DNA of 64,000 bases from Bacteroidales bacterium. Lineage in GTDB: Bacteria; Bacteroidota; Bacteroidia; Bacteroidales; B18-G4. Shown here one piece after another: positions 29,842 to 36,510 of the stretch; positions within the stretch are counted from its first letter, which is position 1; each line of letters begins with the position of its first letter. The stretch lies in assembly GCA_018401355.1 (NCBI GenBank), contig JAGYLD010000001.1, forward strand, positions 51,606 through 115,605, read 5' to 3'. Under the pieces are notes generated by a model, which did no database searches, had not been told where the DNA came from, and saw only the letters and a list, made by a program, of their open reading frames with translations. The position numbers were made by a program, and so were the translations under genes.

Positions 29842-31209
29842 TTATTCCTGTTTTGCAAACCTTTCAAACATTGCACCTCTTTCCTCAAAATTGCTAAAAG
29901 CATCGTAACTCGCTGCTGCGGGCGACAACAAGCATTTATCTCCTTTTTCTGAATTTTGTTTCACAAAATAAACTGCTTCTTTCAGGCTATTCACGAGGCG
30001 TATTACAGGCTTATGGCTTCGGACAGCAAACAGGGATTGGATTCTTTGTCCGGCAGGGCCCATCAATAATATATTCTTTAAGTTCAGGCCGGACAGGTAT
30101 GATACCATATATTCATAGTTTATACCCCGGTCGTAACCACCTAGAATAAGAAAGCTCACTTCCCCAAGTGTTTTTATTGCTTCAATCGTCGCCTGGGGAA
30201 TGGTTGAAATAGAATCGTTATAATAATGCACCCCCCCAAATTCTCCAAGATATTCCATCCTGTGCCGTAAACCCTTAAATGTCAATAATCCCTTCGCAAT
30301 ATGTTCATCCTCCAAACCAACCAGTTTCGCTGCAATGACCGCTGCCATAGCATTGTACAAATTATGACGTCCTATTATGTTGAGCTTTTTCATTATGTTG
30401 AAAGAGCCAAATCTTCCTTGCACCTCATATTCAATTTTAGAATCACGAATGAAACAACCCGGATTTGCTTCTTTCTCCTGACTAAAGAAATATACCTCCG
30501 GTTGAATTAAATGTTCCCTTAAAACATTCATCAGAATATTGTCATCTGCGTTCAAAACCGCATGATCACCAGTTTGCTGAAATTGAAGAATATTGAGTTT
30601 TGCAAGCAAATAATCCCCAAAACCATTGTAATGATCAAGGTGCTCTTCAAATATATTCAGCAAAACAGAAATCCATGGGGAATGTTTCACGGTTTCAAGT
30701 TGATGGGAAGATAGCTCATATACAACAAGAGTATCCCTGGTGATTCTGTTAATAAAATCAAAAGGCGGCAAACCAATATTGCCAACAAGTATATTTTGTT
30801 TTTCTGAAACATTGAAAACATGGCTCAACAAACTGGCTGTAGTGCTTTTACCTTTGGTTCCGGTGATGCCAATGGTTTGTTTGCCGTAGTATTTAAGAAA
30901 AAGATCTGCTTGTGATGTTATTTTTTTTACCGAGATCCTGTCCTGAATTGTCTGCAAAGTAATCCCCGGGGTCTTAAAGCACAAATCAAATGCAGGCAAT
31001 TTATCCAGATAATCCGGGCCTGTGGAAAAACCTACATTTTTATCATCCTTCAGGAATGAGAAACTTTTGGCAGAAATCGGACTCCTGTCTGCAATTGTCA
31101 GGAAAGAATCCGGAAAATTTTCTCTTAGAAAATGATATGTTGATTGGCCTTCGCGTCCAAATCCCAGAATGCATATTTTCCTGTCTTGCAAATCGTCTCT
31201 AAGCATCAA
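29842..31209 (-). CDS. MurD-family ligase, likely MurD2 (UDP-MurNAc-L-Ala--L-Glu ligase)
   Basis: Mur ligase ATP site TIGITGTKGKSTTASLL, N-terminus KICILGFGREGQSTYHF. Overlaps the MurL-like gene upstream on the same strand. Confidence 0.8.
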   Translation of the reverse strand: MMLRDDLQDRKICILGFGREGQSTYHFLRENFPDSFLTIADRSPISAKSFSFLKDDKNVGFSTGPDYLDKLPAFDLCFKTPGITLQTIQDRISVKKITSQADLFLKYYGKQTIGITGTKGKSTTASLLSHVFNVSEKQNILVGNIGLPPFDFINRITRDTLVVYELSSHQLETVKHSPWISVLLNIFEEHLDHYNGFGDYLLAKLNILQFQQTGDHAVLNADDNILMNVLREHLIQPEVYFFSQEKEANPGCFIRDSKIEYEVQGRFGSFNIMKKLNIIGRHNLYNAMAAVIAAKLVGLEDEHIAKGLLTFKGLRHRMEYLGEFGGVHYYNDSISTIPQATIEAIKTLGEVSFLILGGYDRGINYEYMVSYLSGLNLKNILLMGPAGQRIQSLFAVRSHKPVIRLVNSLKEAVYFVKQNSEKGDKCLLSPAAASYDAFSNFEERGAMFERFAKQE

Positions 31210-32452
31210 TGGAATTTTTTAAATGTTTTGCCAAAACAGCCGGCACGAAATTCTCTTCAGACCATTGCCGCAAAAGTTTCCGGAATGTACCTGGTTCATT
31301 ATCTCTGTGGGCTCTGTAATAATTAAGGAGGGCCGGCAACCTTACACCCGGCTCATACTGATTGATAAGTTCATCAAGCGTTGCTTTAACCTCCTGAATA
31401 GTTCCTACACACTCAAAAGGCTTTTCATCCGACATTCCCGCCAGATCCTCCAGTATATGCGAAAGGGAAGAATCGTTGAGCAAATCGCGGCCAAAGATCT
31501 CCCTGAGCAAATTTGATTGTAAAAAAGGTGATAAAACGATATAAGTAAATAGACATTTGGAACATTGTCCACACCAGCTATCAGTCTTACTGCCAACGTT
31601 ACAGCTTCTGAATGCAAAAAAATGTGCAGGAAAATCAGAAAAAAACCTTGCAATTTGTATTTCATTAACAGGACGCAAAAAGCTATAATAGTTGATACCA
31701 GGTGCAAGATAAGCTTTCAGGTATTCACGGAAAACAGATTCAAAATGAAAGGATTTCGAATACTGATGGTTGATCATTGTCCCTGGAATGGTGGGTTCAT
31801 TTGCACTGGACTCATTAGACAAAGCTACTTCGTCAGAACCTGTCAAAGTGGCACCCAAAACACTAACAAAAGCAAGCAAAGCAGAAAAAGGTGTATGGCC
31901 ATTAAGAAATCCTTTATTATTTAATTCCAGCATAAGAGGATCCAGCTTCCTGTTAACGGCCAATGTTTGAGATCTTACAAAACCAGCCTTTTCAATGGAT
32001 CTCCAGGAGGCTTCCCTGGGATTTAGGACAAACGGCACCAGTCTTTTTTTCTGGTTTTTCAGCAATTCAAGTGTCACAACAGAATCCTTTCCCCCACCCA
32101 CTGGAACCAGGATTGAAGAATTCGAATCCGGAAAAATCATTTGATGGGTTTTCCCTTCTGTAATAAACTCATGAATGAATTCATCCTGCGAAGCACTGAT
32201 CCCATTGGTGTAAAAAAATTCACCCAACCCATTAAAATACAACGATCTCCACCACGAAACCTGATGGTCAGTGAGCCTGCCAGGTTTAATGATCACTTTT
32301 GGTGGACAGGCCAGCTTCCAGTAACTAATAAGTTCTATTAATCCGATATGGAAAACCAAAGGCTCGATCAATTCAGGGAAAAGTCCTTCACCATATATTA
32401 AATCATTTACAGCAATGGATATCCAGATATTATGCAGCGGAATCGTATCCAT
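31199..32452 (-). CDS. MurL-like UDP-MurNAc-L-Ala-L-Glu epimerase
   Basis: PP-loop-like ILVPVGGGKDSVVTLELL, WCGQCSKCLFTYIVLSPFL, RSCNVGSKTDSWCGQC. Coupled (11 bp overlap) with a MurD-type ligase. Start chosen at MDTIPLHN. Confidence 0.75.
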   Translation of the reverse strand: MDTIPLHNIWISIAVNDLIYGEGLFPELIEPLVFHIGLIELISYWKLACPPKVIIKPGRLTDHQVSWWRSLYFNGLGEFFYTNGISASQDEFIHEFITEGKTHQMIFPDSNSSILVPVGGGKDSVVTLELLKNQKKRLVPFVLNPREASWRSIEKAGFVRSQTLAVNRKLDPLMLELNNKGFLNGHTPFSALLAFVSVLGATLTGSDEVALSNESSANEPTIPGTMINHQYSKSFHFESVFREYLKAYLAPGINYYSFLRPVNEIQIARFFSDFPAHFFAFRSCNVGSKTDSWCGQCSKCLFTYIVLSPFLQSNLLREIFGRDLLNDSSLSHILEDLAGMSDEKPFECVGTIQEVKATLDELINQYEPGVRLPALLNYYRAHRDNEPGTFRKLLRQWSEENFVPAVLAKHLKNSIDA

Positions 32453-32607
32453 AGAAAATATTATTATGGTCAACTTTTAGATAATAATTTTCAAAAATCA
32501 TTTCAGGAAATTTCACCCTCAGATTGAGATATTTTCCCAAATTGTCCGCTGTCATCTTGGTTTTGTAATTTATTTTTGTATATTAGTATTCAAAGTAGTA
32601 ATTTCTC

Positions 32608-33688: not shown

Positions 33689-34936
33689 ATGACAGAGGGA
33701 GATAAAAACTGCCCGGGCGGAAATCAAGGGGCTGGCATCAGGTCTGATTGCAGTGTGAATTTAACACTTAATAAATCAGGTGGCCGAGAAATTAAGTTAA
33801 CCAGCAAGGTGGATGTAATGTACGGAAACTCGATCAGGAATCAGGTCGATGATATTCTTAAATTCTTTGATATTGAACATGCTACGGTAGAAATTATCGA
33901 TACCGGAGCACTGCCATTCGTTATTGCTGCCAGGATGGAAGCAGCCATTAAGAAACTCATTGATAAAGAAAAAGAGTATCTAACAGAATTGATTGAGATA
34001 AATGATTTTGAAACCAACAGGGATATCGACAGGATCTCAAGGTTGTACCTTCCTGGCAATACGCCCAACCTCATGATCAACGCCGGTATTCATAAACCTA
34101 ATGGCATAATCCTTGACCTGGAAGATGCTGTTGCACCGGCCAAAAAATTTGAAGCCTCTTTTCTCGTCAGAAATGCCCTGAGATCAATGAATTTTTATGG
34201 TGCAGAGAGGATGGTAAGGATCAACCAGGTACCCAGGGGGTTACACGACCTTGAATTTATCGTTCCCCAGAAGGTAAACCTCATTCTGATCCCCAAATGT
34301 GAAACTCCCAGACAGATTCACGCTGTCAACAGAAAGATCCAGGAGATACGGGACAGGCTAAATCTAAGGCATCAAATATGGCTGATGCCCATTATTGAAA
34401 GTGCCCTTGGTGTACAAAGGGCATTTCAAATTGCTTCATCAGCAGATAATATCGTTGCCCTTGCAATTGGTTTGGAAGATTACACTGCCGATATAGGAAC
34501 ATCAAGAACACCCGAGGGCAAGGAATCATTTTATGCCCGGTCGAGGGTTGTCAATGCTGCCAGAGCTACCGGCATTCAACCAATTGATTCCGTATTTTCA
34601 GATGTAAATGATGAGGAAGGTCTTATACAAAATGTCAGAGTTTCCAAATCGCTTGGTTTTGAAGGCATGGGTTGCATCCATCCCAGGCAGATAAAAATAA
34701 TCCATGACAGTTTTGCGCCCGATGATCAGGAAATTGACAAGGCCAAAAAGATTGTCAAAGCTTTTAGCAAAGCCAAAGAAGAAGGTTTGGGTGTGGTTTC
34801 CCTGGGCACAAAAATGATTGATCCACCTGTTGTAAAAAGGGCCCTTCGAACAATCAAACTTGCCATAAAATCCGGAAGGCTGAACCAGGAATGGGAAAAT
34901 GAAGATGATCAAGAAAAGAATCCTGTTATACAATAA
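33689..34936 (+). CDS. Citrate lyase acyl carrier (CitD) - citryl-CoA lyase beta subunit (CitE) fusion
   Basis: N-terminal ~95 aa GAGIRSDCSVNLTL...GNSIRNQVDDILKFFDIEHATVEIIDTGALPFVIAARMEAAIKK is CitD-like. The rest (RLYLPGNTPNLMINAGIHKPNGIILDLEDAVAPAKK...GMGCIHPRQIKI) is CitE/HpcH-like. Confidence 0.88.
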   Translation: MTEGDKNCPGGNQGAGIRSDCSVNLTLNKSGGREIKLTSKVDVMYGNSIRNQVDDILKFFDIEHATVEIIDTGALPFVIAARMEAAIKKLIDKEKEYLTELIEINDFETNRDIDRISRLYLPGNTPNLMINAGIHKPNGIILDLEDAVAPAKKFEASFLVRNALRSMNFYGAERMVRINQVPRGLHDLEFIVPQKVNLILIPKCETPRQIHAVNRKIQEIRDRLNLRHQIWLMPIIESALGVQRAFQIASSADNIVALAIGLEDYTADIGTSRTPEGKESFYARSRVVNAARATGIQPIDSVFSDVNDEEGLIQNVRVSKSLGFEGMGCIHPRQIKIIHDSFAPDDQEIDKAKKIVKAFSKAKEEGLGVVSLGTKMIDPPVVKRALRTIKLAIKSGRLNQEWENEDDQEKNPVIQ

Positions 34937-34947
34937 AATACATCCCA

Positions 34948-36510
34948 ATGAAGAAATATGACAAGCTGGTGAAGAATGCTGCCGGCAGGATAGTACCGGA
35001 AATAATCAATGGAAACCAAAGCATACCTTATAAAGGCATCGGCAAACATATTCCATCCGGAAGAAAGCATGCACCAAATATTGTATCCAGTATAAATTAT
35101 CCGGCCGATGGTAATAAAACCGTAGCATCTATCAGGAAAGCCCTTGAAAGATCAGGCATTAAAAACGGCATGACCATCAGTACACATCACCACTTAAGGA
35201 ACGGAGACCTTGTGGCTGAAGAGGTATTCAAAGCTGCCAAAGAACTTGGCATTAAAGACCTGGTTTGGTTTCCTTCAGCATCCTTTCCCTGCCATGCGCC
35301 AATACTGGAATACCTTGAAGACGGTACAATCAACCGCATTGAAGGAAGTATGAACGGGCCTTTGGGGAAATTCACTTCTGAGGGTAATATGAAAGGAATG
35401 GCTGTTTTGCGCTCCCATGGTGGCCGATATCAGTCTGTTCAGGATGGTGAAGTTCATATTGACATAGCCGTTATTGCTGCACCAACCTCAGACCCTTTCG
35501 GAAACGCAAATGCAGTTCATGGCCCATCTGCATGTGGCATCCTGGGCTATGCGCTTGCAGATTATCAATATGCCGACAAAGTGGTTGTGGTAACCGATAA
35601 CCTGATCGATTTTCCATGTATTCCAATGCAAATTGAAGGTAATTATGTCGATTTTGTTATTGAAGTAGAGAAAATTGGAATTCCGGAAAAGATCGTGTCA
35701 GGAACAACAAAAGTCACTAAAAGTCCCGACAGACTGCTCATTGCTGACTTAACAGCAAGATTCTGCGAAGAAGCAGGAATACTTGGTGATAAATGCTGTT
35801 TCCAGTTTGGGGCAGGTGGTACTTCTCTCGCCATAGGACTCTATTTCCACGAGATATTAAAGAAAAACGCATGGAAAGCAAGGTTTGCCTTTGGTGGAAG
35901 CACACAATATATGGTAAAAATGCTTGAAGAAGGAACCCTGGAATACATCCTTGATGCACAAGCTTTTGACCTGGAGGCTGTTCGTTCCGTGAGGGAAAAC
36001 CATAATCATCAGGATGTCTCTATTTTCCATGCATACAACTACCATTCTAAAGGCAACTATACCACTATGATGGATGTGGTCATACTGGGTGCCACAGAAG
36101 TAGACCTGAACTTCAATGGCAACGTGGTTACACATTCTGATGGCTATCTTCTTCATGGTATTGGTGGCTGGCAGAATTGCCTGTTCTCAAAATGCACCAT
36201 TTTACCTATTCCATTGTTTCGTGACAGGATCCCGGTGATCAAAGATCAGGTGACAACCCTCTGTGGACCAGGAGAATTAATTGATGTGATTGTCACTGAA
36301 AGAGGAATTGCTATTAATCCATTAAGACAGGATCTCATTGAGAGGGTGAAAAACAGCGGTCTGCCATTAAAGACGATTGCAGAATTAAAAGATGAAGCAG
36401 AAAAAATATGCGGCAAACCAGAGAAGCCAGAACTTGATGATGAATTGGTAGCGGCTATTAAATGGGTTGATGGTACCGTAATAGATTCTGTAAAAAAAGT
36501 AAAATCCTGA
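34948..36510 (+). CDS. citF: Citrate lyase alpha subunit (citrate CoA-transferase)
   Basis: AAGRIVPEIINGNQSIPYKGIGKHIPSGRKHAP, GAGGTSLAIGLYF, FAFGGSTQYMVKMLEEG, VTHSDGYLLHGIGGWQNCLF. Confidence 0.92.
   Translation: MKKYDKLVKNAAGRIVPEIINGNQSIPYKGIGKHIPSGRKHAPNIVSSINYPADGNKTVASIRKALERSGIKNGMTISTHHHLRNGDLVAEEVFKAAKELGIKDLVWFPSASFPCHAPILEYLEDGTINRIEGSMNGPLGKFTSEGNMKGMAVLRSHGGRYQSVQDGEVHIDIAVIAAPTSDPFGNANAVHGPSACGILGYALADYQYADKVVVVTDNLIDFPCIPMQIEGNYVDFVIEVEKIGIPEKIVSGTTKVTKSPDRLLIADLTARFCEEAGILGDKCCFQFGAGGTSLAIGLYFHEILKKNAWKARFAFGGSTQYMVKMLEEGTLEYILDAQAFDLEAVRSVRENHNHQDVSIFHAYNYHSKGNYTTMMDVVILGATEVDLNFNGNVVTHSDGYLLHGIGGWQNCLFSKCTILPIPLFRDRIPVIKDQVTTLCGPGELIDVIVTERGIAINPLRQDLIERVKNSGLPLKTIAELKDEAEKICGKPEKPELDDELVAAIKWVDGTVIDSVKKVKS

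Follow-up and report, generated by a model that had tools for sequence, protein, structure and literature searches.

Two overlapping minus-strand genes at positions 29842-32452 of a 64,000-nucleotide stretch of a Bacteroidales draft genome (contig JAGYLD010000001.1; the whole stretch is termed the window hereafter) encode a homolog of MurL and a Mur ligase with the signature of MurD2. We estimate a probability of about 90% that this pair builds the D-glutamate (D-Glu) of the cell wall by the MurL–MurD2 route, known from Xanthomonas oryzae (XOO_1319/XOO_1320; PMC8788868, PMC5808125). The pair would make peptidoglycan D-Glu on the nucleotide precursor, as an earlier note on this DNA had proposed, and in this order it would stand in for the glutamate racemase MurI. 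The proposal is supported by the match to the MurL family, the residues that set the specificity of the ligase, the absence of MurI and the mutual exclusion of MurL and MurI among 247 genomes. The two reactions themselves were established in Xanthomonas; we infer the same activity here from the family match, the residues at the specificity positions, the linked and sometimes fused genes, the missing MurI and the predicted fold.

The first gene (31199-32452) encodes a protein of 417 residues that matched NF041275, the MurL family of NCBIfam (E = 1.2e-71, 241 bits), with residues 38-412 aligned to positions 66-444 of the 447-position profile. Its best match in a plasmid collection was the annotated murL of Xanthomonas sacchari (35% identity), which is followed by a murD that overlaps it by 20 bp (locus L082). 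The second gene (29842-31206) encodes a 454-residue Mur ligase with the N-terminus MLRDDLQDRKICILGFGREGQSTYHF; it matched the MurD profile TIGR01087 (E = 1.9e-102), and both its Mur_ligase_M and its Mur_ligase_C domains were recognized. E values of this size exclude chance as the source of either identity. The 11-bp overlap reported in the earlier note holds if the ligase starts at TTG 31209, but shrinks to 8 bp if it starts at ATG 31206. Both motifs singled out there are present in the first gene: PVGGGKDS (MurL residues 117-124; 32081-32104, minus strand) and CGQCSKC (residues 294-300; 31553-31573, minus strand). In an alignment of 20 MurLs, GGGKDS and CxxCxKC were invariant, the latter corresponding to C294, C297, K299 and C300 of the window protein.

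The ligase can be assigned more closely from residues of demonstrated effect. The double mutation E197D/R358K switches X. oryzae MurD2 from L-Glu to D-Glu, and Escherichia coli MurD gains acceptance of L-Glu through K319T (PMC8788868). We compared positions 182, 319 and 348 (E. coli MurD numbering). By alignment, the window ligase has Glu188 at the position of E. coli D182 and Xanthomonas MurD2 E197 (30643-30645), Ile333 in place of the lysine K319 (30208-30210) and Arg360 at the position of E. coli K348 and Xanthomonas MurD2 R358 (30127-30129), all on the minus strand. This E/I/R combination is identical to that of X. sacchari MurD2 and is nearly universal among the 58 murL-associated ligases of the order (E182 in 57, I319 and R348 in all 58). 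The MurDs encoded in the division and cell wall (dcw) cluster carried D/K/K at these positions in 65 of 65 cases, 45 of them from genomes with MurL and 20 from genomes with MurI. Among nine MurD2s of Lachnospiraceae, I319 and R348 were found in all and E182 in six. These residues support a MurD2 identity for the window ligase, with a predicted preference for L-Glu.

A Pfam search of the window MurL returned only a sub-threshold match to DUF6395, a sequence search of solved structures returned no match, and reviews from 2018 and 2021 describe MurL as lacking known domains (PMC5808125, PMC8788868). Its AlphaFold model was confident (predicted local distance difference test score, pLDDT, 88.9), and a structure search with this model placed QueC first, as the only match at E ≤ 0.001 (E = 2.1e-4, probability 1.00; template modeling score 0.60 by target length, with about 14% of the aligned residues identical). 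The matches that followed were other PP-loop enzymes, namely tRNA thiolases, QatC and argininosuccinate synthase. With its SGGxDS-like loop and a predicted fold like that of QueC, the window MurL can be placed in the superfamily of PP-loop ATP pyrophosphatases. QueC, too, activates a carboxylate using ATP. For MurL, which uses ATP, releases AMP and works in the L-to-D direction only, an adenylate has been proposed (PMC5808125, PMC8788868), and the PP-loop reading, first raised by the earlier note, offers this proposal a structural basis: the model suggests that the window MurL would be a PP-loop enzyme forming an adenylate. The same structural matches to QueC and tRNA thiolation enzymes might instead point to 31199-32452 encoding a PP-loop enzyme unrelated to MurL, for instance one of tRNA or queuosine modification, with a second murD beside it by chance. 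This we regard as hardly credible, given the full-length match to the MurL family, which bears out the identification as MurL, the placement of murL next to murD2, or its fusion to it, in Bacteroidales, Lachnospiraceae and Xanthomonas alike, and the exclusion of MurI by MurL.

This exclusion was evident in our survey of 247 genomes of the order, in which MurI was counted above its family cut-off: MurL was found in 85 genomes, MurI in 148, neither in 14 and both in none (Fisher p = 6e-52, without correction for kinship). Fourteen MurL genomes encode weakly MurI-like proteins resembling Asp/Glu racemases (E values of 1e-5 to 1e-12; about 230-280 residues where lengths were listed); we rejected these as MurI, since all score far below the cut-off. 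In a class-wide sample, MurL was not found in other orders, the source genome being the only carrier among 198 genomes. In relatives, nearly every murL has murD2 as its neighbor, and in three genomes (G275, G377 and G302) the two form a single fused reading frame. Such frames have 885 residues at L032 205-2862, 949 at L040 82-2931 and 921 at L074 2066-4831. Further fusions of 911-919 residues occur in at least three loci from named records (L253, L255 and L272). In five genomes (G198, G267, G273, G412 and G315; loci L063, L066, L068, L071 and L080), murL lacks an adjoining murD2, and MurD2 is encoded elsewhere in the genome. One further genome (G251, L184) has a murL with one in-frame stop, a truncated MurD and no MurD2 that we could find; it is possibly a decaying or incomplete case of the pair.

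Named carriers of MurL are almost all metagenome-assembled genomes of Bacteroidales, together with Lachnospiraceae, among them the cultured Pseudobutyrivibrio xylanivorans DSM 14809; among 14 genomes of this kind, not one encodes MurI above the cut-off. The MurLs of Lachnospiraceae (nine loci: L257, L263, L264, L267, L270, L275, L277, L278 and L279) form one supported clade next to those of Bacteroidales, which suggests transfer of the pair between the two phyla. Judged by its genes, the route is common among uncultured Bacteroidales and reaches into Lachnospiraceae, and related gut and sediment bacteria very probably use it, as predicted, instead of the usual racemase. Our searches of an open-access library turned up no earlier account of MurL from Bacteroidetes.

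The source genome itself, a draft of 2.93 Mb in 205 contigs that is 83% complete, agrees with this picture in its D-Glu supply. No MurI was found, nor any other Asp/Glu racemase even at E ≤ 1, and the sole class-IV aminotransferase is a branched-chain one. Across the order, likewise, MurI was missing from every genome with MurL. In Xanthomonas, as the earlier note set out, the pair replaces both the racemase and the canonical MurD. The racemase is missing here too, but a second MurD is encoded next to mraY in a dcw cluster of standard layout, on a contig other than that of the window, with D/K/K at the specificity positions and all catalytic residues kept. This gene looks catalytically intact, and the replacement of canonical MurD in the source genome is therefore not complete; the combination that the earlier note had named as refuting, murI together with a canonical dcw murD, does not occur, since murI is absent.

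Several observations weigh against our assignment. The canonical MurD of the source genome is intact and apparently catalytically complete. The genome is an incomplete draft, so that murI could be missing by chance, yet murI is found in none of the 85 MurL genomes. The exclusion of MurI by MurL was counted per genome and not per independent event. The window MurL scores 241 bits, below the curated NF041275 cut-off of 700 bits, which was set on Xanthomonadales only. Lastly, the N-terminus of the window murL appears frameshifted. Its reading frame lacks some 50 N-terminal residues found in relatives (about 440-500 residues long), and we call this a frameshift because the missing part lies just upstream in a different frame. 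Using MurLs of same-genus and same-family genomes as tblastn queries, we located it at 32430-32555 on the minus strand (a 41-residue reading frame beginning MTADNLGKYLNLRVKFPEM; 36% identity to a same-genus MurL, E = 7.7e-4). Compared with every relative, the frame changes somewhere around 32445 to 32470, which may reflect either a real mutation or an error of the draft assembly; the catalytic core is intact.

The frameshift, together with the D182/K319/K348 MurD that retains all its catalytic residues, could indicate that the main route runs through the canonical dcw MurD, fed by D-Glu recycled from peptidoglycan or derived from the environment, and that the MurL–MurD2 pair serves another product or is decaying. 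We consider this very unlikely. MurI occurs in no genome with MurL, canonical MurD is missing altogether from seven of nine Lachnospiraceae, and 30 of the 85 MurL genomes hold only a C-terminal piece of the canonical MurD, so that these would depend on MurD2.

These pieces deserve attention in their own right. MurL-carrying Bacteroidales keep the canonical murD between mraY and ftsW, where it is intact in 45 of the 85 genomes (the source genome included), cut down to about 180 C-terminal residues in 30 genomes from 19 families (dcw loci L114-L124 and L182-L200), unresolved or at a contig end in four (G249, G291, G302 and G355, set aside from the count) and absent in six. Contig-edge artefacts were rejected as an explanation: most truncated genes lie well inside contigs, all 30 are directly upstream of ftsW, and mraY precedes them wherever the contig reaches. 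Intact and truncated forms occur as sister pairs in five families (f72, f93, f101, f116 and f160; bootstrap 95-100). On a tree of neighboring dcw proteins, 11 changes between the two forms are required, and well-supported branches force at least eight of these. A single ancestral truncation was rejected, since every bootstrap tree calls for more than one origin. Provided that no lineage has regained the full gene, the changes are independent truncations, and the reduction would have arisen at least eight times. As far as the open-access literature we searched goes, such recurrent reduction of canonical MurD to a C-terminal product is undescribed; no report of a truncated MurD was found.

The fragment appears to be under selection at the protein level. 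In every pair compared, third codon positions vary more than first and second ones (e.g. 0.24/0.11/0.44 for positions 1/2/3; synonymous sites were saturated, and no dN/dS value is given). D317 is kept in 30 of 30 fragments and H301 in 28; N268 and K348 are mostly lost (K348 kept in 7 of 30). Mur_ligase_C was recognized in 20 of the 22 fragments scanned, and the predicted model of the fragment is good and matches the C-terminal domain of solved MurDs. The pieces could instead be leftovers retained only in cis, for example through translational coupling to ftsW, with no role for the protein, and their invariable position upstream of ftsW and the loss of substrate residues such as K348 would fit this. 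We find it rather improbable, considering the far lower variability of codon positions 1 and 2, the open reading frame held in 30 genomes of 19 families, the retained D317 and H301, and the recognizable, well-modeled domain. The pathway does not force a genome to keep the fragment, as seven of the nine Lachnospiraceae have neither canonical MurD nor a remnant that we could find.

The intact dcw murDs of MurL genomes point in the same direction. In most truncated MurDs, the first methionine aligns with E. coli position 256 and is followed by T[LI]E.LA.QG. The corresponding segment of the 45 intact proteins, MTLEELALQG, has M in 43, T in 38 and Q264 in 42, versus T in 2 and Q in 2 of 20 proteins from MurI genomes. 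It is the most strongly group-specific conserved segment of the entire MurD in MurL genomes, with a group difference larger than in all 200 label shuffles, and overall dcw MurD identity is alike in the two groups (0.588 and 0.591). Initiation in Bacteroidetes is reportedly favored by A at -3, -12 and -13 (PMC6847099). In MurL genomes, the A score over positions -3, -6, -12 and -13 was 2.33 at the internal ATG versus 1.29 at other in-frame ATGs within the same genes (permutation p < 0.0002; A at -6 itself was not enriched), whereas MurI genomes, of equal base composition, showed no enrichment (1.33 versus 1.18, p = 0.31). These p-values are weakened by kinship among the sequences; the positional coincidence carries more weight as an argument. 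Compared with MurI genomes, MurL genomes also showed slightly lower conservation of the catalytic part (0.56 against 0.592) and slightly higher conservation of the C-terminal part (0.639 against 0.618). The internal methionine of the source-genome MurD is residue 266 of 447, giving a predicted product of 182 residues. These patterns lead us to infer a separate C-terminal MurD protein with a job other than ligation. Left without an obvious D-Glu supply, the canonical MurD would be kept for this part, which might, as a guess, be an interaction partner or regulator of precursor enzymes. On balance, we lean somewhat towards a scenario in which the C-terminal domain of canonical MurD in MurL-using Bacteroidales carries a second, non-ligase function, is made from an internal start where murD is intact, and was what remained when at least eight lineages cut the gene after ligation had passed to MurD2.

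Inspecting the window by eye, we also noted a candidate protein resembling citrate lyase beta whose N-terminus looks like an acyl carrier, perhaps a CitD–CitE fusion (33689-34936), followed by a candidate alpha-like subunit (34948-36510).

Taken together, the specificity residues, the absence of MurI, its exclusion by MurL and the occasional fusions indicate that the earlier note was essentially right: the pathway is a known one, its phylum-level setting is new, and it is widespread. Two reviews limit the variant to some Proteobacteria and Actinobacteria, with distant orthologs elsewhere (PMC5808125, PMC8788868). Our analysis would extend this variant of an essential pathway to a large share of uncultured Bacteroidales and to cultured Lachnospiraceae, where it would replace glutamate racemase, itself a drug target. 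The truncated genes, moreover, offer a natural experiment on non-ligase functions of MurD, in which evolution repeatedly removed the catalytic domains and retained the C-terminal domain in the dcw cluster.

Compared with known systems, the pair most resembles that of Xanthomonas, sharing the murL-murD2 order with overlapping ends (by 8-11 bp in the window and by 20 bp in X. sacchari), the MurL profile match, the E/I/R residues and the lack of murI. It differs in that its MurL is only ~31-35% identical to Xanthomonas MurL, Bacteroidales and Lachnospiraceae fall outside the published list of taxa, the two genes are fused in some genomes, and a canonical murD persists in the dcw cluster, either complete or as its C-terminal domain only. 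The window ligase shares with canonical MurD (TIGR01087, E. coli murD) its fold family, the P-loop GTKGKST and the catalytic residues, but has E/I/R for D/K/K and lies beside murL, outside the dcw cluster. MurL, in turn, shares an SGGxDS-type motif and a predicted fold with QueC and other PP-loop ATP pyrophosphatases; unlike QueC, it is about twice as long, only ~14% identical over the aligned part and acts on a different substrate, while carboxylate adenylation of the QueC type fits the published ATP-to-AMP stoichiometry of MurL.
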